Shown here: piece after piece, positions 39,263 through 56,014 of the stretch
Layout of the letters: each line of letters starts with the position of its first letter
How positions within the stretch are numbered: position 1 is the stretch's first letter
DNA from: Hylemonella gracilis ATCC 19624
Lineage (GTDB): Bacteria > Pseudomonadota > Gammaproteobacteria > Burkholderiales > Burkholderiaceae_C
NCBI RefSeq assembly: GCF_000211835.1
Contig: NZ_AEGR01000024.1
Coordinates: 1 to 64,000 of the forward strand
DNA: 64,000 nt
Direction of reading: 5' to 3'
Position numbers and translations under genes: made by a program
Notes under the pieces: model-generated
Seen by the model: the letters and a program-made list of their open reading frames with translations, nothing else
Databases searched by the model: none
What the model was told of the DNA's origin: nothing

Positions 39263-39357
39263 ATTGCTAGTCGCCTTTGTTTTCTATTCAGGTGAGTATG
39301 AGTTGGGCCATGTGAGGCATCGGCCTCCTGAACATTGATTTGGATGAGCAAAAGAAA

Positions 39358-41520
39358 ATGAAAAAAGCACGCACAAGAATTGAAGCAGCGAGTAAGAACG
39401 TCCATTCTGGATTTGACAGAAAGCCGGTTGCACAAGCGGTCCTGGTCGCCTTCTTGGGGGCGGCTTGCGTGATGCCTGCCGTGGCGCAGTCCGACTCTGC
39501 GGCCTCTGCGGCTTCTGGTGCCAAAACCTTGGAGGCGGTGACGATCGTCAGCCAGCGCGAGGCGCGGGTGAGCACCGGCGCGACTGGCCTGAATCTAGAG
39601 ATCAAGGAAACGCCGCAGTCCATCAGCGTGGTGACGGCCCAGCAGATGCAGGATTTCGGCGCGACCAATCTCAACGACGCCTTGCGCTTGTCAACGGGTA
39701 TTCAGGTTGAAGAGTGGGAAACCAATCGCACCAACTACATGTCGCGCGGCTTTGAAATCAAGAGCACGCAGATCGATGGCGTTGGCATGCCCAACGATTG
39801 GGGCATCGTGACCGGTGCCATGGATTCATTTGGCTACGAAAAAGTCGAGGTCATCCGTGGTGCGAACGGTCTATTGACTGGCGTGGGTAATTCCTCGGGC
39901 ACCATCAACTATGTGCGCAAGCGGCCTACCAATGTGGAACAAGGATCGGTCGGCGTGAGCTATGGGTCTTGGGGCACTACCCGGGCCGAGGTCGACTACT
40001 CGAAACCGTTGAGTGATGATGGCCGTTGGGCTGGACGGGTTGTTGCCGTGCGAGAAGAGGGGGGTTCTTATTTGCGTGACCTGGAAAACGAGCGCACCTA
40101 CATCTATGGCGTTGTGGATGGTCAAGTGGGTGACAACGGCACCTTGGCACTTGGCTACTCCTATCAACAGGCCAATACCGACGGAAACATGTGGGGTGCG
40201 TTGACGTTCAGCAACAACGACGGCAGCCAGGCTAAGTGGTCGCGCAGCGCCTCAACGACTCAGGATTGGACCTACTGGAATACGAATAACCAAACGGCTT
40301 TCGTTGAGTACATCCACCAGCTCGCTGCGGACTGGCAGCTGAAGACGTCTTACAACTTCCGAAGCAGCAGAAACGACGATCAATTGTTCTATGTTTACAG
40401 CTCAACCGGGCTGGATCCGAACACCGGTTCGGGAGCGACAGGCTGGCCGGGCAAATATGTGGACGAGAGTGAAACCCACCTTTTTGACGTCAATGCCAGC
40501 GGCAGCTTTGGACTGTTTGGCCGTCAGCACGAATTGATTGTGGGCGCCAGTCACGGCCGCAGCAAACAGACCTATTGGAACCATACCCCTGCGTCTGGAT
40601 TCGATCCTGTCAGCTTCCCGCTGAACGGGAATGAGGTGGATGAGCCAGATTGGGGACCGAAGACGTTCTACAGTGAACTCAATCTGCGCCTCACGCGCAT
40701 GTATGGCACGACTCGTCTGCAGGTGAGTGACAAGCTGAAAGTGATTGGTGGCTTCAACTTTGCCGAGTTTCACCGTGATGGCAACGACTCGGGCACTCTC
40801 TTTGACCAGACTGAGCGTGAAATCAGTCCTTACGCAGGCGTGACGTACGACTTCACTGACCGTTTGATGGGCTACGCAAGTTATTCGGACATTTACCAGC
40901 CGCAGGATCAACAGGACATCAATGGCGACTATCTGGATCCTTCGAAGGGGGTCAATTACGAGGCAGGCGTGAAGATGGACTGGCTGAATAAGCGGCTGCT
41001 CACGAGCCTGGCTTGGTTCCGCGCTGAGCAAAAAGGACTCTCCGTTTATGCCGGCACAAACGCGACCACGCAGCAGTACTACTACACCGGCATGGATGTC
41101 GAGTCCCAGGGCTTGGAGTTCGAAGTCAGCGGCAAGCTCGACAACAACCTGGATGTCGTCCTGGGTTACACCACCATGGAAATGACCGACACGGAGTCTG
41201 GTGATCCCGTTCTGTGGGCGCCGCGCCAGACCGCCAATTTGGCGATCAGCGGCCGCGTACCCAGCACTCCGGTGACCCTGGGCGCGAATGGCCGTTGGCA
41301 GAGCAAGACCTCCAACGTCGATGGTTCGAGTGGCTACACCGTGCGCCAAGACAGCTATGCGGTGCTCAACGCTTTCGCGGCGTATCAGGTCACACCTAAG
41401 ACTACCTTGCGCTTCAATGTCAAGAACCTGACCGATGAGAAGTACATCAATAGTCTTTACCAAATTGGTTACTACGGGGCACCTCGCAGCTACCAAGCCT
41501 CTTTGAACTATAAGTTCTGA
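39358..41520 (+). CDS. TonB-dependent siderophore receptor
   Basis: About 720 residues: signal peptide (AVLVAFLGAACVMPAVAQS), plug domain (KETPQSISVVTAQQMQDFGA, GANGLLTGVGNSSGTINYVR) and a 22-strand-type barrel ending in NLTDEKYINSLYQIGYYGAP and a C-terminal Phe (NYKF) used by the Bam machinery. The plug sequence matches the FhuE/FpvA-like ferric-siderophore receptors; the ligand cannot be named. ATG 39358 is preferred over TTG 39340 because it begins the basic signal-peptide head. Base composition is somewhat lower in GC than neighbouring genes. The Fur-like box upstream and the PepSY gene downstream fit iron-starvation control. Confidence 0.93.
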   Translation: MKKARTRIEAASKNVHSGFDRKPVAQAVLVAFLGAACVMPAVAQSDSAASAASGAKTLEAVTIVSQREARVSTGATGLNLEIKETPQSISVVTAQQMQDFGATNLNDALRLSTGIQVEEWETNRTNYMSRGFEIKSTQIDGVGMPNDWGIVTGAMDSFGYEKVEVIRGANGLLTGVGNSSGTINYVRKRPTNVEQGSVGVSYGSWGTTRAEVDYSKPLSDDGRWAGRVVAVREEGGSYLRDLENERTYIYGVVDGQVGDNGTLALGYSYQQANTDGNMWGALTFSNNDGSQAKWSRSASTTQDWTYWNTNNQTAFVEYIHQLAADWQLKTSYNFRSSRNDDQLFYVYSSTGLDPNTGSGATGWPGKYVDESETHLFDVNASGSFGLFGRQHELIVGASHGRSKQTYWNHTPASGFDPVSFPLNGNEVDEPDWGPKTFYSELNLRLTRMYGTTRLQVSDKLKVIGGFNFAEFHRDGNDSGTLFDQTEREISPYAGVTYDFTDRLMGYASYSDIYQPQDQQDINGDYLDPSKGVNYEAGVKMDWLNKRLLTSLAWFRAEQKGLSVYAGTNATTQQYYYTGMDVESQGLEFEVSGKLDNNLDVVLGYTTMEMTDTESGDPVLWAPRQTANLAISGRVPSTPVTLGANGRWQSKTSNVDGSSGYTVRQDSYAVLNAFAAYQVTPKTTLRFNVKNLTDEKYINSLYQIGYYGAPRSYQASLNYKF

Positions 41521-41556
41521 GTCGCTGCCAGTACCAATGATCATCTGAGGAAAAGT

Positions 41557-41576
41557 AAGACGCCCTTGGGCGTCTT
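41557..41576 (+). terminator. Hairpin after the TonB receptor gene
   Basis: AAGACGCCC and GGGCGTCTT form a 9-bp perfect inverted repeat with a 2-base centre, 37 bp after the receptor stop and 15 bp before the PepSY gene. No strong T tract follows, so it may attenuate rather than stop transcription into the next genes. Confidence 0.6.
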
Positions 41577-41590
41577 CCCCATTGATACCC

Positions 41591-42745
41591 ATGCAAAACA
41601 AAACCATCAAAACCTGGTCCTGGGTGCACAAATGGAGCAGCCTGGTTTGCACGGTCTTCATGCTGCTGCTGTGCCTCACTGGCTTGCCCTTGATCTTCCA
41701 CCACGAGATCGGCCATCTGCTGGGCACGGAGGTCGAGTCGCCGGAGATGCCCGCTGACACGCCGCGTGTGAGCGTGGACAAGGTCATCGAGGTGGCGAAG
41801 GCGCAGCATCCGGACCGGGTGGTGCAGTTCCTGTTTCCCGACGAGGACGACGCGAACATCTGGTTCGCGACCATGACGCCCACCCCCGCGCCGACGGACG
41901 ATTTCCGCTCGGTGGCCATCGACGCCCGCACGGGCGCTCTGCTGGCGCAGCCTAGGTTCGACGAGGGTTTCATGTGGGTGATGTTCAAGCTGCACGTGGA
42001 CCTGTTCGCGGGCCTGCCTGGAATGCTTTTCCTGGGCTTCATGGGCTTGTTGCTGCTCGTGGCCATCGTCAGCGGCGTGGTGCTCTACAGCCCTTTCATG
42101 CGCAAGCTGGAGTTCGGCGCGGTGCGACGTGAAAACAGTCCTCGCATCAAGTGGCTGGACCTGCATAACCTGCTGGGCATCGTGACCCTGGTCTGGTTGT
42201 TCGTGGTGGGGGCCACCGGGGTCATCAACACCTTGGCGGACCCGCTCATCAAGTATTGGCAATACGACCAACTCAGCTCGGTGCTGCAGCCTTACCAGGG
42301 CAAACCGCCCGTGCCTGAGGCCGAGCGTGCGTCGGTGCAGGGCTCCCTGGACGCAGCCTTGCGTCACGTGCCGGGCAGGGCGTTGTCCTTCATCGCTTTC
42401 CCAGGCACGGCTTTCTCCAGCCCGCACCACAACACCGTGTTCCTCAAGGGCAATGAGCCCTTTACCGCACGCCTGATTCAGCCCGTGCTGGTGGACGCCA
42501 AGACCAATGAAGTGACGGCAGCCCCGCCCTCGCCGTGGTACATCGATACGCTGCGGGTGTCTCAACCGCTGCACTTCGGTGACTACGGCGGGCGGCCCAT
42601 GCAAATCGTCTGGGCCGTGCTGGACATCGCGACCATCATCGTGCTGGGCAGCGGCCTTTACCTTTGGCTGGCCAAGCCCCAGGGCGCCACGCGCCGCCGC
42701 CGTGATGAATCGACTCGGCCGGACGAAAGCGCGGTGGTGTCATGA
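41591..42745 (+). CDS. PepSY-associated transmembrane protein (iron-uptake linked)
   Basis: A 384-residue inner-membrane protein with about four helices, for example LVCTVFMLLLCLTGLPLIFH, FLGFMGLLLLVAIVSGVVLY, NLLGIVTLVWLFVVGATGVI and AVLDIATIIVLGSGLYLWLA. Conserved histidines lie near membrane edges (KWSSLVCT..FHHEIGH, FKLHVDLFAG). PepSY-TM proteins are found beside TonB siderophore receptors and some act as ferric-siderophore reductases; that role is inferred here. ATG 41591 is preferred to TTG 41582. Its stop overlaps the start of a 22-codon ORF (ATGA). Confidence 0.88.
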   Translation: MQNKTIKTWSWVHKWSSLVCTVFMLLLCLTGLPLIFHHEIGHLLGTEVESPEMPADTPRVSVDKVIEVAKAQHPDRVVQFLFPDEDDANIWFATMTPTPAPTDDFRSVAIDARTGALLAQPRFDEGFMWVMFKLHVDLFAGLPGMLFLGFMGLLLLVAIVSGVVLYSPFMRKLEFGAVRRENSPRIKWLDLHNLLGIVTLVWLFVVGATGVINTLADPLIKYWQYDQLSSVLQPYQGKPPVPEAERASVQGSLDAALRHVPGRALSFIAFPGTAFSSPHHNTVFLKGNEPFTARLIQPVLVDAKTNEVTAAPPSPWYIDTLRVSQPLHFGDYGGRPMQIVWAVLDIATIIVLGSGLYLWLAKPQGATRRRRDESTRPDESAVVS

Positions 42746-43003: not shown

Positions 43004-43058
43004 GCCGAAAACCTGCCTGCGAGGGTTTCCCGGGGCCTGCGCATGGCATGGTTCCTGA

Positions 43059-46000
43059 ATGTCAGGGAGCATGGATGCCCCGGCCCGCTTTCCGTCTGAA
43101 TCCGCCGACACCGCTGTATCGGACGCGGTGGATGCTGCCGGTGCGCCTGTGCAGACCATCGTCAAGGTCCGGCGCGACTACAACGCCTGGGTGGCCAGCG
43201 AGACGCTCGAAGATTACGCGCTGCGCTACACCCCGCAGCGCTTTCGCAAGTGGAGCGCCTGGAACGTGGCCAACACGGCCGCGGGCGGTGCGGCTTCCTT
43301 CCTGATCCTGGAGGCGGTTGGCGCCACGCTGCTGGTGCAGTACGGCTGGGCCAACGCCGCGCTCGCCATCCTGGCGACCGGCCTCATCATCTTCCTGGCT
43401 GGCTTGCCCATCAGCGTCTACGCGGCCCGCTACGGCGTGGACATGGACCTGCTCACGCGCGGCGCGGGTTTCGGCTACATCGGCTCGACCATCACGTCGC
43501 TGATCTACGCCAGCTTCACGTTCATCTTCTTTGCGCTGGAGGCCGCTGTCATGGCCTACGCGCTGGAACTGGCCTTGGACATCCCGCCGCGCTGGGGCTA
43601 TTTGGTCTGCGCGCTGGTGGTCATCCCTCTCGTGACGCATGGGGTGTCGGTCATCAGCCGCCTGCAGGTGTGGACCATGCCGCTGTGGCTGCTGATGCTG
43701 GTCGTGCCCTTTGTCACGGTCCTGGTGCTCGATCCGCACGCTTTTGATGGAGTTCTGCACTACGCTGGGGATCGCAGTGGCACGGCCAGTCTAAGTGCGC
43801 TCCATTTTGGTGCCGCCTTGACCGTGGGGGTGGCCCTGATGACGCAGATGGGTGAGCAGGCCGATTACCTGCGCTTCATGCCCGCGCGTACCTCCACCAA
43901 TCGCCTGCGCTGGTGGGCGGGGGTGCTGGCCGGCGGGCCGGGCTGGGTGCTGCCGGGCGTGCTCAAGATGCTGGGCGGTGCCTTGCTGGCCTACCTGGCC
44001 TTGAGCCAAGCCGTGCCGGCGGACCGGGCGGTGGACCCCAACCAGATGTACCTGGCGGCCTACGGCTACGTTTTCCCGCATTACGGCTGGGCCGTGGCCG
44101 CGACGGCACTCTTCGTCGTGATCTCGCAGCTCAAGATCAATGTGACGAACGCCTACGCCGGTTCCCTGGCCTGGAGCAATTTCTTCTCGCGCCTCACGCA
44201 CAGCCACCCGGGGCGCGTGGTGTGGGTGGTGTTCAACACCCTGATCGCCTTCCTGCTGATGGAGATGGATGTGTTCCAGGCCCTGGGCGACGTGCTGGGT
44301 TTGTACAGCAATATCGCGATCGCTTGGATGATGGCCGTGGTGGCGGACCTGGTCATCAACAAGCCGCTGGGTCTTTCGCCCAAGGGCATCGAGTTCAAGC
44401 GGGCGCATCTGTACGACATCAACCCGGTGGGTGTGGGGGCGATGGCCCTGGCGTCCCTGGTCTCGGTCACGGCGCACCTGGGTGTGTTCGGGCCCATGGC
44501 CCAGGCCTACTCGGCCTTGATCGCCTTGGGCGTGGCCTTCGTCACGGCGCCGCTGATCGCCTGGGCCACGCGAGGGCGTTATTACCTGGCTCGCCAAGCC
44601 GATGCCCCGAGCCATGCGCAGCGTGTCTCGTCCGCCCCGGTCGCGGGGACGCGGCCGTCCTGGCGCGGCCCGGTGGTGGTGGCGGTTGGTGCAGCGCAAG
44701 CAGGGAACTACCTGGGCGTGAAGCTCCAGCGCTGCGTGATCTGCGAGCGTGAATACGAAGGGCCGGACATGGCGCATTGCCCGGCGTACCAGGGGGCGAT
44801 TTGTTCGCTGTGTTGCACCCTGGACGCGCGCTGCGGTGACCTGTGCAAGCCGGGCGCCAGTTTCTCCGCGCAATGGAACAGCGTGCTGCAGCGTCTGCTG
44901 CCGCGTACCCTTTGGCCCTACCTGGATCGAGGGCTCGCGCACTTCCTGTTGCTGATGCTGTTCACCGCGCCCTTGCTGGCCGGCGTTTTCGCTCTGTTTT
45001 ACCAACAGGAGCTACAGGGTTTGATGCACCGGGGCTTGGGCTCCGCAGTCGAATTGGAGGCCGCCGAATCGGCCCTGCGCTCGGCCTTCCTCAAGGCCTA
45101 CGTCGCCCTGCTGCTGGTGGCGGGTACCGTGGCCTGGTGGGTGGTGCTGGCGCACAAGAGCCGCCAGGTGGCGCAAGAAGAGTCCAACCGGCAGACCGCC
45201 CTGCTGCGCCGTGAAATCGATCTGCACCAGCAAACCGATGCCGCCTTGCAGGAGGCACGCCGCGTGGCCGAGGAGGCGCAGGGCATCGCCGAGCACGCGC
45301 GCAGGCAGGCCGAGCAGGCCAACCAGGCCAAGAGCCGCTACATCAGCGCCATCAGCCATGAGCTGCGCACGCCGCTCAACAGCATCCTGGGTTACGCGCA
45401 ACTGATGGGCGAGGACCCGCAAGTACCCGCGCACCGCAAGCACGCGGTGCAGGTGATCCGCCGTGGCGGTGAGCACCTGCTGTCGCTGATCGAAGGCACC
45501 CTGGACCTGGCGCGCATCGAGTCGGGCAAGCTCACGCTCGACGTCAAGCCCATGGCCTTTGCCGACGTCGTGCATGAACTGGCCGCGATGTTCGAGTTGC
45601 AGGCCGCGGCCAAGGGGCTGGCTTTCCGTTTCGCGCCCCTGTCCACGCTGCCCGAGCGGGTGCGCGCCGACGAAAAGCGCGTGCGCCAGATTCTGATCAA
45701 TCTGTTGGGCAACGCCATCAAGTTCACCGCCCAGGGTGAGGTGACGTTCCAGGTGCGTCACGCCCGCGAAATGGCTTACATCGACATCCGCGACACCGGC
45801 CCCGGCATGGCGCTGGACGAGATGGAGCGCCTGTTCGAACCCTTCGCCCGCACAGCCTCTGCCCAGGGCACGCCGGGTGCCGGGTTGGGCTTGACCATCG
45901 CCAAGATGCTGACCGACCTCATGGGCGGCGAGCTCACGGTGCAAAGCACGCCGGGCCTGGGCTCGGTCTTCCAAGTCAAGCTCTTCCTGCCCGAGGCGCA

Positions 46001-46691
46001 CGCCGCCTTGCCCTCGGCGCGACCGGCCGTGCCCAAGCCGCCCCGCCGTGGCTACCTCGGCGCGCGCCGCCATGTGCTGGTGGTGGACAACGAAGAGCCC
46101 GACCGCGAGATGCTCACGCAGCTGCTGGTCCCCCTGGGCTTCGTGCTGCGCACCGCGTCCAGCGGCCATGACGCGTTGGACCTGCTGGCGGCGGGCTACG
46201 TGCCGGACGCCATCTTCATGGACCTGGCCATGCCCGGCATCGATGGCTGGGAAACCATCCGCCGCTTGCGCCGCATGCCGGGGCTGGCCCAACTCCCTGT
46301 GGCCGTGGTGTCCGCCAATGCCTTCGACAAGGGCTTGGAGAACGACGCGGGCATCGCGGTATCGGATTTCATCACCAAGCCCATCCGCCACAGCGAGTTG
46401 CTGGATTGGCTGGAGCAGCGACTGCAACTGCGTTGGACCGAGCTCACGCCGCCCCAGTCCCCGGCACCTGCCGCGCCTGGGCCGGTGACTCCGCCCTCGG
46501 ACGAGCGCGTGGCCGAGCTGCGTGAACTCGCGGGGCTGGGTTACTACCGTGGCATCGTGCGCCTGCTCGACGACGTCGAGGCGCAGAATCCCGCTCACCA
46601 AAGCTGGGTGGCGCAGGTGCGGGCGCTGGCGCGCGCCTACCGCTTCGACGCCATCCTGGCGCTGATCGAACCCTCTGCCCCGAAGACATGA
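43059..46691 (+). CDS. NCS1-type permease fused to a hybrid histidine kinase
   Basis: A 1210-residue protein. Residues about 45-515 are an NCS1 (purine/cytosine permease) transporter with roughly 12 helices (FRKWSAWNVANTAAGGAASF near the start; LKINVTNAYAGSLAWSNFF). Residues 559-596 form an eight-cysteine cluster: CVIC, then C574, CSLCC (582-586), C592 and C596. Two further helices (about 627-650 and 679-702) flank a short loop. A coiled coil leads to HisKA with phospho-His767 (ISHELRTPLNS) and HATPase (NLLGNAIKFT; DTGPGM; GAGLGLTIAK). A receiver follows (IFMDLAMPGIDGWE, Asp1055; TKP), then a 90-residue tail. By analogy with CbrA, where a solute symporter is fused to a kinase, it may sense or carry a nucleobase-like ligand. 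The start may also be ATG 43071. Confidence 0.85.
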   Translation: MSGSMDAPARFPSESADTAVSDAVDAAGAPVQTIVKVRRDYNAWVASETLEDYALRYTPQRFRKWSAWNVANTAAGGAASFLILEAVGATLLVQYGWANAALAILATGLIIFLAGLPISVYAARYGVDMDLLTRGAGFGYIGSTITSLIYASFTFIFFALEAAVMAYALELALDIPPRWGYLVCALVVIPLVTHGVSVISRLQVWTMPLWLLMLVVPFVTVLVLDPHAFDGVLHYAGDRSGTASLSALHFGAALTVGVALMTQMGEQADYLRFMPARTSTNRLRWWAGVLAGGPGWVLPGVLKMLGGALLAYLALSQAVPADRAVDPNQMYLAAYGYVFPHYGWAVAATALFVVISQLKINVTNAYAGSLAWSNFFSRLTHSHPGRVVWVVFNTLIAFLLMEMDVFQALGDVLGLYSNIAIAWMMAVVADLVINKPLGLSPKGIEFKRAHLYDINPVGVGAMALASLVSVTAHLGVFGPMAQAYSALIALGVAFVTAPLIAWATRGRYYLARQADAPSHAQRVSSAPVAGTRPSWRGPVVVAVGAAQAGNYLGVKLQRCVICEREYEGPDMAHCPAYQGAICSLCCTLDARCGDLCKPGASFSAQWNSVLQRLLPRTLWPYLDRGLAHFLLLMLFTAPLLAGVFALFYQQELQGLMHRGLGSAVELEAAESALRSAFLKAYVALLLVAGTVAWWVVLAHKSRQVAQEESNRQTALLRREIDLHQQTDAALQEARRVAEEAQGIAEHARRQAEQANQAKSRYISAISHELRTPLNSILGYAQLMGEDPQVPAHRKHAVQVIRRGGEHLLSLIEGTLDLARIESGKLTLDVKPMAFADVVHELAAMFELQAAAKGLAFRFAPLSTLPERVRADEKRVRQILINLLGNAIKFTAQGEVTFQVRHAREMAYIDIRDTGPGMALDEMERLFEPFARTASAQGTPGAGLGLTIAKMLTDLMGGELTVQSTPGLGSVFQVKLFLPEAHAALPSARPAVPKPPRRGYLGARRHVLVVDNEEPDREMLTQLLVPLGFVLRTASSGHDALDLLAAGYVPDAIFMDLAMPGIDGWETIRRLRRMPGLAQLPVAVVSANAFDKGLENDAGIAVSDFITKPIRHSELLDWLEQRLQLRWTELTPPQSPAPAAPGPVTPPSDERVAELRELAGLGYYRGIVRLLDDVEAQNPAHQSWVAQVRALARAYRFDAILALIEPSAPKT

Positions 46692-47698
46692 GCGATACCC
46701 TGGCCCAGGCCCTCAACCGCGCGCACAGCGACGTGGTGCTGATCGTCGACGACGTGCCCGACAACCTGTCGCTGCTGCACGACGCGCTGGACGAATCGGG
46801 CTGCACCGTGCTGGTCGCCTTGGACGGTGCCTCGGCATTGCAGCGGGCTGCGCAGGCCCGTCCGGACATCGTGCTGCTCGACGCCATGATGCCCGGCATG
46901 GATGGATTCGAGGTTGCGCGGCGTTTGAAGGCCGACGCGACCACGGCCCACATTCCCATCATCTTCATGACGGGGCTGACTGAGACTGAGCACTTGGTGG
47001 CCGCGCTGGAGGCGGGGGGCACCGACTACGTGACCAAGCCCATCCGCCCCAAGGAGGTGTTGGCCCGCATGCACGTGCACCTGCAGGGCGCGCGTGAGCG
47101 GCGCCAGGCGCGCAACGCGCTGGATGCCTTCGGCTACGCCAGTGTCACCGTGCGCGCCAGCGACGGCCGACTGATGTGGCAGACCCCGCTCGCACGTGAG
47201 CTGCTGGCGCGTTATTACGGCGAGCCAGTGCCTGGACCGGCGCATGTGCCTGAGCCAGTGCTGACCTGGTTGCGTCTCAGCGTGGAGCATGTGCTGGAAG
47301 CCCAAGCCCGCGGTGAACCCCTGGCCGAGCCGCCGCGCTTGAGCGTGGAGCAGGGCGCGCGCCGCCTCACCTTGCGGCTGCACCAGCGCAATGACGATGG
47401 CGCGACCTCCGCGGCCGCGGGCGACTGGATGCTGATCATGCAGGAGGCTTCAGACGAAAGCGTCATCGAAGCGATTTCCTTGAGCTTCCGATTGACGGCC
47501 AAAGAGGCCGAGGTGCTCTACTGGGTCATCAAGGGCAAGATCAACCGCGACATCGGCGACATCCTGGGCAGCAGCCCCATGACGGTCAAGAAGCACCTGG
47601 AGCGGGTCTACGCCAAGCTCGGCGTGGAGACTCGCACGGCCGCCGCGGCACTGGCGATGAACCGCATCAAGCAGTTGCATCCGCAGTTCGAGGGGTGA
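46688..47698 (+). CDS. REC-LuxR response regulator, probable partner of the permease-kinase
   Basis: A 336-residue regulator. The N-terminal receiver (VVLIVDDVPDNLSLLHDALD) has phospho-acceptor Asp65 in IVLLDAMMPGMDGFE and the conserved Lys in DYVTKPIRPKEVL. Residues about 140-255 are a PAS-like or unassigned linker. The C-terminus is a LuxR/GerE helix-turn-helix (LTAKEAEVLYWVIKGKINRD, then SPMTVKKHLERVYAKLGVET). The start overlaps the kinase stop (ATGA), which strongly suggests a cognate pair. Its target promoters are unknown. Confidence 0.92.
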   Translation: MSDTLAQALNRAHSDVVLIVDDVPDNLSLLHDALDESGCTVLVALDGASALQRAAQARPDIVLLDAMMPGMDGFEVARRLKADATTAHIPIIFMTGLTETEHLVAALEAGGTDYVTKPIRPKEVLARMHVHLQGARERRQARNALDAFGYASVTVRASDGRLMWQTPLARELLARYYGEPVPGPAHVPEPVLTWLRLSVEHVLEAQARGEPLAEPPRLSVEQGARRLTLRLHQRNDDGATSAAAGDWMLIMQEASDESVIEAISLSFRLTAKEAEVLYWVIKGKINRDIGDILGSSPMTVKKHLERVYAKLGVETRTAAAALAMNRIKQLHPQFEG

Positions 47699-49889: not shown

Positions 49890-50861
49890 TCACTCCGGCT
49901 TGTAGCCGCTGCTCTTGAGCAAGGCCGCGCTCTCGGACACGTAGCGCTGGCTGTATTTCTTGAAGTCATCAATGGTTTCGATGACGGGGTCAATCCCCAG
50001 CGGCGCATAGGCGCCGGATTTGATCAATTGCCGCGTGGCTTCGTTGATCGCCTTGTTCAGCATTTGCTGCCGTTGCACCGACAAGCCCTTGGGACCCCAG
50101 ACGCCATACCAGGATTCCGCGACGAAGTTGGGGAACCCGCTCTCCGCGGCCGTGGGCACCTCCGGCATCAGCGCGCTGCGCTTGGCCGACGTCACGGCGA
50201 TGGGCTTGACCTTGCCCGCCTTGGCCAGCGATTGCAAGGAGATGATGGAGTCGATCAGGATCTGGGTCGTGCCACCGGCGACATCGGTCAGGGCGGGCGC
50301 GGTGCCCCGGTACACCACCGTCGCGAGATTGAGCTGCCCTTCCTTGGCCAGCATCAGGGTGGCCAGGTGACTGGGGGCGCCCAGCGCGGGCAGACCGGCA
50401 TACCATTTGTCCGGTTCACTGCGCGCGGCTTGCATGACATCCTTGATCTGCGTCTGCGGCAGATTGGGGGCGATCACCATCAGCAGGGGCGCGCTTGCGG
50501 TCCGGGCGATGAAGCTGAAGTCGGTCAAGGGATCATAGGGCGGCTTGGCCATGGCCTCCTTGGTCAGCACCTGCGTGGCGGCGGAGAACAGCAGTGTCAG
50601 GCCGTCGGCGGGCGCGGTCTGCACGGCCTTGCCCCCAATGGCGCCACTGGCTCCGGGGCGGTTGTCAACGATGACCGGCACACCCAAGTCCGTTTGCAAC
50701 TGCTTGGCCAGCAAGCGCGCCGCATTGTCGACACCTCCGCCCGCGGCGAAAGGAACAATGATCTTGACGGGCCCTTCCGGGAATTTGTCTTGCGCAGCGA
50801 CGATGCCGGTCATGAGCAAACCCAGCAGCAAGCCGAGCAGTTTGGGGATACGGATGTTCAT
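49890..50861 (-). CDS. Bug/TctC-family periplasmic solute-binding protein
   Basis: A 323-residue extracytoplasmic binding protein. The signal peptide (LLGLLLGLLMTGIVAAQ) is followed by a Bug fold: GPVKIIVPFAAGGGVDNAAR, VIVDNRPGASGAIGGKAV and PEVPTAAESGFPNFVAESWY. The start at 50861 has AGGAGA 6 bases upstream. No tctA/tctB membrane genes are adjacent, which is common because Bug proteins are often orphans. It is the last gene of the hydantoinase-type operon, so it may bind that operon's substrate or act as a sensor. Confidence 0.92.
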   Translation of the reverse strand: MNIRIPKLLGLLLGLLMTGIVAAQDKFPEGPVKIIVPFAAGGGVDNAARLLAKQLQTDLGVPVIVDNRPGASGAIGGKAVQTAPADGLTLLFSAATQVLTKEAMAKPPYDPLTDFSFIARTASAPLLMVIAPNLPQTQIKDVMQAARSEPDKWYAGLPALGAPSHLATLMLAKEGQLNLATVVYRGTAPALTDVAGGTTQILIDSIISLQSLAKAGKVKPIAVTSAKRSALMPEVPTAAESGFPNFVAESWYGVWGPKGLSVQRQQMLNKAINEATRQLIKSGAYAPLGIDPVIETIDDFKKYSQRYVSESAALLKSSGYKPE

Positions 50862-50889
50862 GGTTGTCTCCTGAAGAAAATTGAAATGC

Positions 50890-51303
50890 TCAAACCTCGC
50901 CTCGGTATGCGCCTCGCCAGGCTTTGGAACCACCCAGCAAGGGTGCGGCCAGGGCGGGGCCGTGCAGTTCCGCGTAGGACTGCAGCGTTCTGCTCATGCG
51001 CGGCAGCAGCCAGTCCGCGACGGCGGAGCTTGCCTCTCCGTCACTCAGGCGCTGAAGGATGTCGCGCACGGGCTGCGGCTGGATCGCCAAGGGGCCCCGC
51101 AGCAGCAGGAAATCGATGACCTCGGTCATGCCTTCGCGCTCGCTTCGCTCCAGGAAATGGTCGGCGATGTCACGCTCGAAGTCTTCGAGGGTGACGGTCA
51201 CGCCACTCATGGCGCAGGCACAGCCCAGCGCGATGTGCTGCGCCGCCAGCCGATGCCAGAGCATCGAGAGGTAGGCGGCTTGATCACAGGGCTGCATGTC
51301 CAT
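50890..51303 (-). CDS. Unrecognised small protein in the hydantoinase-type operon
   Basis: A 137-residue protein, mostly helical in appearance (YLSMLWHRLAAQHIALGCAC; VTLEDFERDIADHFLERSER; AVADWLLPRMSRTLQSYAEL). It has no signal peptide or membrane segment and no recognisable zinc motif, only scattered cysteines (PCDQ, GCAC). The start at 51303 is preceded by GAGAGGGGACCCCG, a plausible ribosome binding site; ATG 51297 is an alternative. It begins 22 bp after the B subunit and ends 28 bp before the binding-protein gene. Acetone and acetophenone carboxylases have a small third subunit in this position, but I see no similarity. Confidence 0.75.
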   Translation of the reverse strand: MDMQPCDQAAYLSMLWHRLAAQHIALGCACAMSGVTVTLEDFERDIADHFLERSEREGMTEVIDFLLLRGPLAIQPQPVRDILQRLSDGEASSAVADWLLPRMSRTLQSYAELHGPALAAPLLGGSKAWRGAYRGEV

Positions 51304-51325
51304 CGGGGTCCCCTCTCCGCTTGAG

Positions 51326-53068
51326 CTAGGCGCGGCGTCGCGCGGTTTCCTCGGCGTTGACCTCGAAGCGCTCGTCGAGCACGACGCCATACAAGGTCTC
51401 GGCTTGTTCGCGGCTCACGTAGCCTTCGCGCACGTCCTCGGCCACCCGTTCGGCGTCGCGCTCCATGGGGTTGCCGAAGCCGCCACCGCCACCCGACAGC
51501 ATTCTGTAGGCGTCACCCCGCTCCAGGCGCACGTTGAAGATTTTGGCGTTCGGATGGTCCGTCTTCCATTCACCCTGGTGTCGCACCGCCAGGCCGTTGC
51601 CCATGGCATCTCCGCCACCTTCCAGCCCCCAGGGTTTGCAATGAACGCGGTCGATGCGGGTCGTGACGGTGAAGGGCGAGAGCGCCTGCACCACCATTTC
51701 GGCCCCCAAGCCACCGCGATGTCGGCCCGCGCCGCCCGAGTCCTGGCGGATTTCGTATTTCTCCACCAACACCGGGTACTTGGCCTCCAGTTGCTCGGTC
51801 GGGCTGTTGTGGGTGTCTCCGTCGTTGATGCAGACCGTGACGGACACCCCGTCCTCGCTGCTCTTGGCGCCCCAGCCTCCGCCCAGAGGACCGATGCCCA
51901 CGATGAACAGCCGCCCGTCCTCGGGTGAAATGCCATGGATGTTGGGGAAGACCAAGTCGGCGTGGTGACCCGCGATCGACCGGTGCGGGATGGCCGGCGC
52001 CAGCGCCTTGAAGATGGTGTCGATCACCGTCATGGGGAAGGTCATCCAGACGCGCATGGGGTAGGGCCGTTCCGCGCTGATCACCGTGCCCATGGGCATG
52101 ATCACCTTGAGAGGTCGGAAGCTGCCGTCGTTCACCGGGTAGTCGGTGGGCGTGGTCAGACATTTGTAGGCCACCTGCGCGCAGGCGATGCCGGTGGTGA
52201 AGCCGGAGTTGTAGAAGCCCTTGACCTGTCGGCTCACATCCGAGAGGTCGATGGTCATTTCGTCGCCGCTGACGGTCACCTTCACCCGGATCGGAATGCG
52301 CTTGCCGATCTCCAGACCATCGTCGTCCATGAAGGATTCGGCTTCATAGGTGCCGTCGGGGATGGACAGGGTGTTCTCGCGCGCCACGGCCTCGGACGAA
52401 TCCATGATCTGCTGGATCGCGCCGTGCACCGCTTCGGCGCCGTAGCGCCGCAGCAGTTCGACGTAACGGCGCTCGCCCGTGGTGATGGCGGTGATCTGGG
52501 CGCGCAGATCACCCATGGCACGTTCAGAGAGCCGCACATTCATCGCGATGATGTCGATGAGGTCCTGGTTGACCACGCCCTCGCGCTGGTACTTCACGAT
52601 GGGAATCTGGATGCCCTCGCTGTAGATGTCGGTGGTCACGTTGCCCAGCGTGCCGCCCACGTCCAGCCAGTGCGCCATGCAGCAGGTGAAGCCCTGCAGC
52701 TGTCCTTCGTGAAAGACCGGCATCGTGAAGGTGAAGTGGTTCAGGTGACTGCCCGTGGTGTAGGCGTCGTTGGTCACCAGGATGTCACCCGGCTTGATGT
52801 TGTCATAGCCAAAGTGCCGGATCTTGGCTTTCACGGTCTCGGACATGCCGCGGATGAACATCGGCAATCCGAGGCCGATGGAGACGGTGTCCCCTTCCTT
52901 GGTGAAGAGGCCGACGGTGAAGTCCAGCGCTTCATAGATGATGAGGTTGTAGGCCGTGCGCGTGAGGTTGGTCTTCATCTCCTCCGTCACGGCATACAGG
53001 CCATTGCGGATGATTTCGACGGTGACCGGATCTATCCCGGACGTCTTGGGGGTGGCTGTCGTGCTCAT
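51326..53068 (-). CDS. Hydantoinase B / oxoprolinase-type subunit
   Basis: A 580-residue HyuB-family subunit, with segments DPVTVEIIRNGLYAVTEEMK, NDAYTTGSHLNHFTFTMPVF, GGTLGNVTTDIYSEGIQIPI and EKYEIRQDSGGAGRHRGGLG. HyuA/HyuB enzymes use ATP to open cyclic amides (N-methylhydantoin, 5-oxoproline, caprolactam) or carboxylate ketones; the substrate here cannot be assigned. The start overlaps the A-subunit stop (ATGA), which supports an AB complex. Confidence 0.9.
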   Translation of the reverse strand: MSTTATPKTSGIDPVTVEIIRNGLYAVTEEMKTNLTRTAYNLIIYEALDFTVGLFTKEGDTVSIGLGLPMFIRGMSETVKAKIRHFGYDNIKPGDILVTNDAYTTGSHLNHFTFTMPVFHEGQLQGFTCCMAHWLDVGGTLGNVTTDIYSEGIQIPIVKYQREGVVNQDLIDIIAMNVRLSERAMGDLRAQITAITTGERRYVELLRRYGAEAVHGAIQQIMDSSEAVARENTLSIPDGTYEAESFMDDDGLEIGKRIPIRVKVTVSGDEMTIDLSDVSRQVKGFYNSGFTTGIACAQVAYKCLTTPTDYPVNDGSFRPLKVIMPMGTVISAERPYPMRVWMTFPMTVIDTIFKALAPAIPHRSIAGHHADLVFPNIHGISPEDGRLFIVGIGPLGGGWGAKSSEDGVSVTVCINDGDTHNSPTEQLEAKYPVLVEKYEIRQDSGGAGRHRGGLGAEMVVQALSPFTVTTRIDRVHCKPWGLEGGGDAMGNGLAVRHQGEWKTDHPNAKIFNVRLERGDAYRMLSGGGGGFGNPMERDAERVAEDVREGYVSREQAETLYGVVLDERFEVNAEETARRRA

Positions 53069-55152
53069 GGTGTTTCGTTCCCGATGACGATTTGCAGATT
53101 GCCGAGTTCGTCGACGGACAGGGTGTCGCCAGGTTGAACGACCGTGGTGGAGGCATGTTCTTCGATCAACGCCGGGCCCACGACGACGTTGCCCGCCAGC
53201 AGTTGCTCGCGCACGTACACGGGGGTGTTGACCCATCCTGTCGCGCGGAAGTACACCGGTTTGTTCGCGCGCATCGCCGCGGGCGCGGCTTGGGCCGTGC
53301 CCCGTGCCACGCTGTGCCGAGGCGGCTTTTTCATCGTGCCCAGGACCGTGACGCGCAGGCTGACCAGATCGGCCGGTTCCTTGGGCGCGGACGTGCCGTA
53401 GCGCACCTTGTGCAGCTCGTCGAATTGCTGCTTGATCGCGGCGCGGTCCTTGGCCGCGAAGAAGGCCTGCGGCAGGTCGACGGTCACCGCGTGCTCCTGG
53501 CCGACGTAACGCATGTCGGCGGCGCGCTCGATGACCACGCCTTCCGGCTTCACACCCGACTGAGCCAGGGCCGCGCGGCCTTCGTCCTCCATGGACTGGT
53601 AGGCGGCCTCGATCTCCTCGAAGGAGACCTCATTGAGCTTGCGAAAGACCGAACGCACGTAGTCATAACGCAGATCGGAGAACAGCATGCCGTAGGCCGA
53701 GAAATAACCCGGCGCATAGGGAATCAGCACCTTGCGGATGCCGAGCTCCCGCGCAATCGCGGATGCGTGCAAGGGGCCGGCTCCACCGTAGACCACCATG
53801 GTGAAGTTGCCCGCGTCCAGGCCCCGTTCCGTGGTCACGGCCTTGACGGCGTGCGACATCTGCGTCACCGCGATGCGCAAGATGCCATCGGCGGCCTCGG
53901 TCGGGTCCAGGCCCAGCGGGCTGGCCACCCGTTCCAGCATCTGACGCTGGCTTCCTTCAAGGTCCAGCTTGAGTTCGCCGCCCAGGAAGTGGTCGGCGTC
54001 CAGGCGGCCGAGCAGCAAGTTGGCGTCCGTGACCGTGGGGTCTTGCCCGCCGCGGCCATAGGCCACGGGCCCAGGAATCGAGCCCGCGCTTTGCGGTCCG
54101 ACGCGCAGCGCCTTGCCGGTCTCGACGCGTGCAATCGAGCCGCCCCCCGTGCCGACTTCATGGATGTCCATCATCGGAATCTGGATGGGCAGCGCGCGCT
54201 CGTAACCTCCGATCAGCGCCGAACCCGTGGTGAGTGGCCGCCCCTCGCTGATCACCCCGGCCTTGGCCGTGGTCCCGCCCATGTCGAAGGCGATGGCGTC
54301 GCCCATGCCCAGTTGCGCGCAGATGGCCTGCGCGCCGATCACGCCAGCCGCGGGGCCGGATTCCAGCATGCGCACGCAACCCACCTTGGCATGCGCCACC
54401 GGAAACAAGCCGCCCGTGGACTGAACGATGTAGAAATCGCCCTCGAAATGCTGGCCGCTCAGGTGCTGTTCCAACTGACCGAGGTAGGCACTCACGCGGG
54501 GACCGACGTAGGCGTTGGCCACGGCCGTGGACACACGCTCGAACTCGCGGTATTCCTGCGAAAGCTCATGGGAGGCACAGACAAAGGCCCCCGGCAGTTC
54601 TTCCTGCAGGATCTGCTTGACCCGCTGTTCGTGTGCTGGGTTGCGGTAGGAGTGCAGCAGCAACACGGCCACGGCCTCGATGTCCTGGCCCTTGAGCTCG
54701 CGTGCGAGTTCGCGCACGGCGGCTTCGTCCAGCGGCTTGTGGATGCCGCCGTCGGCGCGCAAGCGCTCCGAGACTTCGTGACGCAGCGAGCGCTTGACCA
54801 AGGGCTGGTGCTTGTTGAAGAAGAGGTTGTAGGCGTCGGGCCGGTTCACGCGGCCGATTTCGTAGATGTCACGAAATCCCTCGGTGATCAGCAAGGCGGT
54901 CTTGGCCCCGTTGCGTTCCAGCAGGGTGTTGATGGCGATGGTCGAGCCGTGCAGGAACAGGCGTCCGTCACGCCAGTCGATCTTGGCGCTGTTGATGGTG
55001 TCCTGGATGCCCTTGACGAGTTCGCCATGGGTGGAAAGCGCCTTGCCGAACAGCAGTGTGCCGCTGGTCTCGTCAAACGCGGCCATGTCGGTGAAGGTGC
55101 CGCCGATATCGACGGCGATGCGCAGCGACTTCTGGGAAGAGGGGGCGTTCAT
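53065..55152 (-). CDS. Hydantoinase A / oxoprolinase-type subunit
   Basis: A 695-residue HyuA-family ATP-dependent subunit. The ASKHA-type phosphate motifs are visible: IAVDIGGTFTDMAAFDETSG at the N-terminus, DAIAFDMGGTTAKAGVISEG in the middle, and VVYGGAGPLHASAIARELGI. The PHxGTGGG-like adenosine region reads IHEVGTGGGSIARVETGKA. It is the larger partner of the B subunit and begins 7 bp after the FAH-family gene in transcription order. Confidence 0.92.
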   Translation of the reverse strand: MNAPSSQKSLRIAVDIGGTFTDMAAFDETSGTLLFGKALSTHGELVKGIQDTINSAKIDWRDGRLFLHGSTIAINTLLERNGAKTALLITEGFRDIYEIGRVNRPDAYNLFFNKHQPLVKRSLRHEVSERLRADGGIHKPLDEAAVRELARELKGQDIEAVAVLLLHSYRNPAHEQRVKQILQEELPGAFVCASHELSQEYREFERVSTAVANAYVGPRVSAYLGQLEQHLSGQHFEGDFYIVQSTGGLFPVAHAKVGCVRMLESGPAAGVIGAQAICAQLGMGDAIAFDMGGTTAKAGVISEGRPLTTGSALIGGYERALPIQIPMMDIHEVGTGGGSIARVETGKALRVGPQSAGSIPGPVAYGRGGQDPTVTDANLLLGRLDADHFLGGELKLDLEGSQRQMLERVASPLGLDPTEAADGILRIAVTQMSHAVKAVTTERGLDAGNFTMVVYGGAGPLHASAIARELGIRKVLIPYAPGYFSAYGMLFSDLRYDYVRSVFRKLNEVSFEEIEAAYQSMEDEGRAALAQSGVKPEGVVIERAADMRYVGQEHAVTVDLPQAFFAAKDRAAIKQQFDELHKVRYGTSAPKEPADLVSLRVTVLGTMKKPPRHSVARGTAQAAPAAMRANKPVYFRATGWVNTPVYVREQLLAGNVVVGPALIEEHASTTVVQPGDTLSVDELGNLQIVIGNETP

Positions 55153-55159
55153 GGCGTCT

Positions 55160-56014
55160 TCAGGCCTCGTCGGTGATGACGTTGCGCAGAACGCCCAATC
55201 CGGTGATCTCGATTTCGATCACGTCCCCGGCCACCATGTAAACCGGTGGGTCGCGGCGGTCGCCCACACCGCCAGGCGTGCCGGTGGCGATCACGTCACC
55301 GGGCGACAGCGTCGTGAAGCCCGACAGGTATTCGATGATGACGGGCAGGGTATAGATGAGATCGGCCAGGGAGGCTTGCTGCATCACCTGTCCATTCAGT
55401 CGCGAGGCGATCGTCAGTCGGTTGACGTCGGGGATCTCGCGTGGCGTGGCCATGTAGGGGCCGAAAGGCCCGGTGGCCGGGAAGTTCTTGCCCGGTGTCC
55501 ATTGATGGGTGTGGCGTTGCCAGTCGCGCGCGGTGCCGTCGTTGAAGCAGGCATAACCGGCGATGTGCTCAAACGCCCGTGCCTGGGGGATGGCGCGCCC
55601 CCCGTTGCCGATGATGACGGCCAGTTCCGCTTCGAAGTCAAAGCGCTGGGTCGCCTTGGGTTTGGGCATCGGGGCGTCGTGCGCGAGCAGACTGTCGGCA
55701 AAACGCGTGAAGATCGCCGGGTACTCGCTGTCCGCGCGCTTGGTCTCGGCGACGTGCGACTTGTAGTTCAGTCCCACGCACAGAATCTTGCCGGGGTTCG
55801 GGATGACGGGCAGCAAGCGGGCTTGACCCGCTGACACGGTGCGGCCCAACGTGCGCGCCACGCGGTCCAGTTCATCCAGCCGATCGGCGGCAATCACGGA
55901 CTTGAGGTCGGGATACCGGGCTTCAAATTCCGACGGTGCCTGGATCCAGGTCTGTTGATCCTTCCACACGCCGTAGCTCGCACGGCCCTCGATGTCAAAA
56001 CTCACGAAACTCAT
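55160..56014 (-). CDS. Fumarylacetoacetate hydrolase-family protein
   Basis: A 284-residue FAH-fold enzyme. Metal-binding residues are in DFEAELAVIIGNGGRAIPQA and in the FNDGTARDWQ and KNFPATGPFGPYM segments; KILCVGLNYKSHVAET is the family entry motif and SPGDVIATGTPGGVGDRR the end. Members hydrolyse or decarboxylate 2-keto acid-type intermediates. It is the promoter-proximal gene of the operon and would act on the ring-opened product of the hydantoinase-type enzyme, an inference from position. Confidence 0.92.
   Translation of the reverse strand: MSFVSFDIEGRASYGVWKDQQTWIQAPSEFEARYPDLKSVIAADRLDELDRVARTLGRTVSAGQARLLPVIPNPGKILCVGLNYKSHVAETKRADSEYPAIFTRFADSLLAHDAPMPKPKATQRFDFEAELAVIIGNGGRAIPQARAFEHIAGYACFNDGTARDWQRHTHQWTPGKNFPATGPFGPYMATPREIPDVNRLTIASRLNGQVMQQASLADLIYTLPVIIEYLSGFTTLSPGDVIATGTPGGVGDRRDPPVYMVAGDVIEIEITGLGVLRNVITDEA

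Follow-up and report, generated by a model that had tools for sequence, protein, structure and literature searches.

A putative urea or short-chain amide sensor kinase built on an NCS1-like permease domain in Hylemonella gracilis

What does a histidine kinase sense when its N-terminal part resembles a permease? The question is raised by a gene at 43059-46691 (plus strand) of a 64,000-nucleotide stretch of contig NZ_AEGR01000024.1 of Hylemonella gracilis ATCC 19624 (hereafter the window). In a single uninterrupted frame it encodes a 1210 amino acid (aa) fusion of an NCS1-like permease, a cysteine module and a hybrid histidine kinase, and it is followed by a gene for a REC-LuxR response regulator (46688-47698, plus strand). 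An initial annotation of the sequence had proposed a nucleobase-type transporter used as a sensor of a purine, pyrimidine or related compound. We find that the family is tied to genes for the uptake and hydrolysis of urea and amides, and we infer both a ligand and a route of phosphotransfer under which the protein is probably a urea or short-chain amide sensor kinase built on a transporter (a 'transceptor'). This reading is based on gene linkage, the positions of stand-alone homologues, the NCS1 fold, residues that mark the sensors, an upstream palindrome and purifying selection. Urea is a major nitrogen source in soil and fertiliser.

Family distribution and gene neighbourhoods

Two sets of relatives were compared. 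The close set comprises the window protein and the best 80 of 276 relatives recovered by a genome contig scan (81 loci, leaning to the Comamonadaceae), the best match of the window protein being that in H. gracilis Niagara R (93% in the best segment). The fusion is present in all 80 relatives kept, some of them cut by contig ends, so the window frame is no product of a frameshift or of faulty assembly. A permease profile searched against 398 Pseudomonadota genomes matched in 53 of them, giving 61 match rows, of which 58 lie in frames of 894-1365 aa, two represent one stand-alone frame of 552 aa and one is a fragment; the NCS1-kinase fusion, which according to the initial annotation is not known to have been characterised, recurs at these 58 places. 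For the distant set, 39 of the 58 long-frame places were fetched with their neighbours and 38 were counted, including the second copy of the same Hylemonella genome and excluding L107, whose frame had been merged by the gene finder. Gene models came from a custom script rather than a published gene finder, and neighbours were named with NCBIfam models (UrtA, scoring 520 bits where the cut-off is 492.75, UrtB, UrtC, UrtD, UrtE, FmdA, aliphatic amidase and UreABCEG).

Genes for urea transport (urt) occur in the fetched neighbourhood of 37/38 distant loci, the remaining locus lying near fmdA (formamidase), and urtA is adjacent and divergent in 29/38. The usual order is a kinase-regulator pair divergent from urtABCDE, with fmdA after the latter at most loci and fmdB and an amidase gene at some; within the stretch counted, formamidase was found at 29/38 loci, an FmdB-like gene at 15/38 and amidase at 11/38. 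Among the close loci, 65/81 have urease genes within eight genes and 60/81 have ureA as the divergent neighbour, and of the 16 loci lacking urease in this range, eight have upstream genes in the fetched DNA and eight have none. Annotated records agree with this linkage (B. vietnamiensis pBVIE02 and a Mitsuaria plasmid with urease), and on a K. pneumoniae plasmid formamidase-urtEDCBA is divergent from a gene of fused length. In a second, gammaproteobacterial sample of 369 genomes, 17 with a match, we inspected 16 fused places (excluding G000 and G019), of which nine are linked to urea or amide genes, including a second pair in tandem that lies beyond the first, and two are too near a contig end to be assessed. 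Two fused kinase-regulator pairs stand in tandem in G657 (L239/L240), ~5 kb apart, the first beside a urt-fmdA cluster. Homologues are carried by 526 plasmid records, 342 of them labelled Klebsiella by their first word, and no relative was found in the viral contigs searched. The regulator gene is adjacent to the kinase gene at 76/81 close loci (window included) and 37/38 distant loci, bearing out the view that the REC-LuxR protein is the coupled partner of the kinase.

In favour of a domain that senses a nucleobase, a hydantoin or a related compound are the NCS1 fold, with the solved members Mhp1 and CodB as its matches, the AMP nucleosidase gene that follows in the window and a hydantoinase/oxoprolinase-like pair at 51326-55152. 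The conserved neighbours, however, are urtABCDE, formamidase, amidase and urease genes, and the stand-alone members of this permease branch are located next to formamidase or inside urease operons. Hydantoinase-like genes were seen only in the window and L008 among nine neighbourhoods compared. AMP nucleosidase, clustered in just 5/81 close loci (the window, L002, L003, L006 and L008), was rejected as a clue to adenine. We regard ligands of this kind as very unlikely, and the purine or pyrimidine first proposed is unsupported by the neighbourhoods.

Stand-alone homologues and the sensor module

In a K. pneumoniae record, a gene for a 535-aa 'cytosine permease' (L207:6941-8548), 46% identical to the sensor domain over 545 aa, follows ureD, ureA, ureB, ureC, ureE and ureG, and in L232 a stand-alone permease gene likewise follows ureG. 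Another (L231:8593-10443) is divergent from a fused kinase gene, in the usual position of urtABCDE, with fmdA, an FmdB-like gene and an amidase gene coming after it, while the stand-alone gene of L129 precedes genes for a carbon-nitrogen hydrolase, a periplasmic binding protein and an AmiR-like regulator. Judging from these positions, the substrate of the stand-alone permeases would be urea or a short-chain amide, which suggests that the urease-operon gene annotated as a cytosine permease is possibly misnamed and may encode a urea permease.

One gammaproteobacterium combines this N-terminus, all eight cysteines included, with two other architectures, PAS-PAS-HisKA-HATPase-REC (L233) and PAS-GGDEF-EAL (L234), and given these domains we rejected treating the two proteins as ordinary unlinked members. 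Because their output domains differ, the N-terminus and cysteine module together appear to form a sensor module with exchangeable outputs. As read from the sequence, the gene for the PAS-GGDEF-EAL fusion (L234:6852-10520) adjoins RuBisCO- and CbbQ-like genes. Sensors and stand-alone permeases also differ in helix 1, where residue 85 is Glu in 80/80 close rows with a letter at that position and in 38/38 distant rows. The stand-alone proteins have Phe or Gln at 85 (5/5) and Asp at 84 (4/5), so that L/M84-E85 in the sensors stands against mostly D84-F/Q85 in the permeases. The L231 permease is 49-58% identical to the sensors compared versus 46-50% to other stand-alone permeases, and since it keeps the stand-alone pattern despite being closer to the sensors overall, the helix-1 difference is probably functional. 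A member with PAS-GGDEF-EAL in place of a kinase and a Glu at residue 85 in sensors only both support the idea, already put forward in the initial annotation, of a transporter used as a sensor.

The domain might instead mainly transport urea or an amide, with the kinase reporting flux or being governed by UrtA-E or metabolic partners, so that occupancy would not be the signal. Stand-alone homologues do occupy the positions expected of a transporter, and CbrA is reported, in the portion of the source available, to combine transport and kinase domains (PMC13022988). We nonetheless think this unlikely, as the helix-1 difference looks as if transport had been altered and Ks-Amt5, according to the available text, binds but does not translocate (PMC5764959). 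Beyond the urea or amide sensor kinase of the window, we lean, with some reserve, towards a broader scenario in which a widespread NCS1-type branch for urea and short-chain amides became a portable sensor. Stand-alone members would import, and fused members, marked by the helix-1 change, would be dedicated receptors for histidine kinases and once for GGDEF-EAL, providing the direct urea receptor of many Proteobacteria. As the family pairs stand-alone permeases with fused sensors of one fold, the change from transporter to receptor is testable at named residues.

Fold of the permease domain

The assignment of the permease domain (residues 34-512, 43158-44594) to the NCS1 type held at the level of fold. 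A first structure prediction, covering residues 34-760, was poor (pLDDT 56.8, below 50 in the cysteine region); its best Foldseek match, already Mhp1 (E 7.8e-4), is not relied on. The fold comparison uses a second, better prediction of the permease domain alone, for which CodB and Mhp1 are the best PDB matches and NCS1 members fill the top five Foldseek rows and the top four VIA rows. The predicted fold is NCS1-like and of LeuT type, with CodB and Mhp1 as the nearest NCS1 structures. Profile comparison with hhalign gave a probability of 83.6 to the NCS1 profile versus 1.1 (E 0.05) to the SSF profile. The domain search suggested in the initial annotation had a divided outcome: the kinase domains are recognised, and the gathering cut-off of Pfam PF02133 is reached by three of the five stand-alone homologues (identities of 30, 45 and 46%) but not by the window N-terminus itself. 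Mhp1 and CodB, both PF02133 members, are 13-14% identical to the window protein, which escapes Pfam detection, and differ from its family in the urea and amide gene company of the latter. The domain does not qualify as SLC5, given the SSF probability above and the lack of any Pfam match for residues 1-534, and no significant Pfam domain was found between permease and HisKA (best E 1.8; STAC was not searched by name).

The cysteine module

Eight cysteines at residues 559, 562, 574, 582, 585, 586, 592 and 596 (44733-44846, plus strand) form the motif CX2C-X11-C-X7-C-X2-CC-X5-C-X3-C. All eight are invariant in 81/81 close rows (window included) and 38/38 distant rows, and the spacing is identical across the 38 distant proteins; the cluster pointed out in the initial annotation is conserved enough to be a genuine part of the protein. 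The module has no relative in Pfam, and against PDB sequences gave only matches at E 0.8 and 9.5. A search for it in 396 genomes returned only frames of 894-1365 aa, plus five weak partial matches. We rejected the idea that the module is unique to fused proteins, as two urease-operon stand-alone permeases retain CX2C-X19-CX2C only, a pattern that in our own reading resembles a zinc ribbon, and the stand-alone L231 permease has all eight cysteines. Metal binding by the module is likely. The initial annotation suggested that the cluster between membrane and kinase could add a metal or redox input; the module is conserved but is not specific to the kinase.

Invariant cysteines at a fixed spacing, combined with urease linkage, could mean that the module is the actual input and the permease part a mere anchor; the signal would then be zinc, redox state or a metal such as the nickel that urease requires. 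This is distinctly improbable in our judgement: the same eight cysteines persist at loci whose fetched DNA holds formamidase but no urease, the stand-alone permeases of urease operons hold half of the module and another holds all of it, and the permease domain is conserved as well as the module (mean identity 0.62 versus 0.61 in the distant set).

Signalling domains and proposed mechanism

The module is followed by two hydrophobic stretches, residues 622-651 and 671-702 by hydropathy (44922-45164), which are predicted as helices in the low-confidence first structure model also. Pfam places HisKA at residues 757-823 (45327-45527), HATPase_c at 871-977 (45669-45989) and a C-terminal Response_reg at 1006-1117 (46074-46409), and with H767 and D1055 as acceptor residues the protein has the complete set of a hybrid histidine kinase. 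The neighbouring 336-aa regulator consists of Response_reg and GerE with D65 as acceptor, and its gene overlaps the kinase gene by ATGA. The unbroken permease-kinase frame, both acceptor positions of the kinase and the ATGA overlap are all as the initial annotation described them. The start of the kinase gene is ambiguous, since the ATG at 43059 used here, 43071 and 43149 are all possible and the initial ~30 residues are unconserved. A degenerate sigma54-like -24/-12 site (GG-N10-GA), read from the sequence, lies at 43045-43058 on the plus strand. Two of the 58 long frames are ~900 aa in length; L138, the one scanned, lacks the receiver, as does L236, and the fused receiver is therefore not essential.

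We propose that urea (or formamide or acetamide) would bind in the permease fold and that the resulting change of state would reach the dimeric kinase by way of the cysteine module and the last two helices, as their order and conservation suggest. The phosphate of H767 would then pass directly to D65 of the REC-LuxR regulator, in keeping with the coupling of the two genes, and the fused receiver (D1055) is probably modulatory, given that members lacking it exist. The phosphorylated regulator would switch on urtABCDE, formamidase/amidase or urease genes, and in urt/fmd-linked members may bind the palindrome TACG-N8-CGTA, the motif itself being the support for this step.

Upstream regions

The TACG-N8-CGTA palindrome occurs in 21/38 distant upstream regions (mean 0.1 and maximum 1 in first-order shuffles). 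Among the gaps of 4 to 12 examined between TACG and CGTA, gap 8 was found in 21 regions, gap 4 in one and the others in none, and relaxing the second half to CG[TC]A raised the count to 28/38. The palindrome fits a LuxR-type operator, by analogy with the ACTU repeat for CrbR (PMC5715377). For the close set, promoter counts refer to 78 of the 81 loci, three with almost no upstream DNA being excluded. A looser form, T[ACT]CG[CT]-N7-CG[TC]A, is present in 18/78 of these regions (shuffle mean 0.6, maximum 3; other gaps 0-2). A sigma54-like GGCAYG-N6-GC points toward the kinase gene in 65/78 regions, the window not among them, and toward ureA in 43/78 (shuffle mean 1.8 on one strand, maximum 5), counts that are not independent, the sequences being related; such sites suggest nitrogen control. 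A search of the Hylemonella genome for the site at the locus of the second copy (C102), allowing up to three mismatches, returned that site and one three-mismatch match on another contig.

Conflicting evidence

Several observations weigh against a urea or amide sensor, or against individual parts of the argument. Urease does not occur within eight genes of the window copy or of seven further close loci for which there is upstream sequence, the fetched DNA of 5/14 assessable gammaproteobacterial fused places (one being the GGDEF-EAL fusion) shows neither urea nor amide genes, and the DNA within 7 kb of a Streptomyces stand-alone homologue ('allantoin permease') lacks any urea gene. Regarding family membership, Pfam searches found no PF02133 match in residues 1-534 of the window protein (E up to 10) or in any of 26 aligned members, made up of the window protein and 25 relatives (E up to 1), two of the five stand-alone homologues (Streptomyces and L231) do not match PF02133, and sequence profiles had no match among PDB sequences. 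The strict palindrome is present in 0/78 close-type upstream regions and its CG[TC]A form in 8/78 (shuffle mean 0.1), and none of the matches to the C102 site lies in the window, the exact copy in the genome being confined to the C102 locus; because of this distribution we assign no target to the window regulator. Lastly, the ligand may not be the same for amidase-linked and urease-linked members.

Comparison with known systems

Transporter-fused kinases are already known (CbrA, CrbS, Ks-Amt5), and the NCS1-like, urea/amide-linked type is a new variant. CbrA has been described, in the text available, as a 'transceptor' (PMC13022988) and belongs with CrbS and RpuS to the SLC5/STAC histidine kinases (PMC9100948), which like the window protein have a transporter domain fused to a (hybrid) kinase. 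According to the available text, CrbS works with a LuxR-family regulator that requires an inverted repeat (PMC5715377). These kinases have an SLC5 domain and a STAC linker where the window protein has an NCS1 domain, a cysteine module and two helices, and their ligands are given in the accessible descriptions as acetate, pyruvate or histidine, as opposed to the urea or amide proposed here. Ks-Amt5, an ammonium sensor kinase, likewise recruits a transporter fold to sense a nitrogen compound, but this is the Amt fold and the ligand is ammonium, and a LuxR partner is absent from the portion of the description available (PMC5764959).

On the side of the proposed targets, the Methylophilus fmdCABDEF genes, of the same kind as those considered here, are induced by formamide and urea and repressed by ammonia, with a sensor kinase absent from the part of the review at hand (PMC10781810). 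An Ectopseudomonas urtABCDE/fmdA locus has, as here, two-component genes beside urtABCDE (a hybrid kinase and a LuxR regulator), recorded as gene content in a text whose available sections do not describe a permease fusion, cysteine module or function (PMC13296017). The available text of further reports gives UrtABC/AmiF as the urea transporter of a Klebsiella lineage (PMC13060141) and a urtABCDE-formamidase locus in Pseudomonas (PMC13209695). Among the matches listed from the open-access literature, titles and opening lines mention no NCS1-kinase fusion, no urea-sensing kinase and no dedicated transporter-type urea receptor.

The window copy and its surroundings

The Hylemonella genome holds two copies of the fusion. 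The second (C102), whose permease domain is 61% identical to that of the window copy, stands divergent to urtABCDE-fmdA on a contig that also carries amidase and urease farther along. The window copy falls within a urease-linked clade, which takes up 30 of the 70 rows of a permease tree with 100/100 support (the bootstrap not being fully settled), and has lost urease as a neighbour, lying between genes for a PepSY protein and AMP nucleosidase. Of its near kin, L006 has urease upstream and AMP nucleosidase downstream, and L002:1162-12442 has both paralogous kinase-regulator pairs in the same direction ~2.5 kb apart, the window-type pair being preceded by the second copy and followed by allophanate hydrolase. 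Since the upstream side of these relatives still carries urease or the second copy, a rearrangement probably affected that side of the locus in the H. gracilis lineage. Compared with Hylemonella gracilis, the ratio of nonsynonymous to synonymous substitution rates (dN/dS) is 0.076 over the kinase gene (from 43149) and 0.038 in its permease part, while the regulator gives 0.070; values this low indicate strong purifying selection on the window copy.

Directly upstream of the kinase gene, a TonB-dependent receptor gene followed by that of a PepSY_TM protein occupies 39340-42745. Further downstream, the minus strand of 49890-56014 encodes a TctC receptor, a hydantoinase B and A/oxoprolinase-like pair (51326-55152), which caprolactamase models matched below their cut-off, and an FAA hydrolase.

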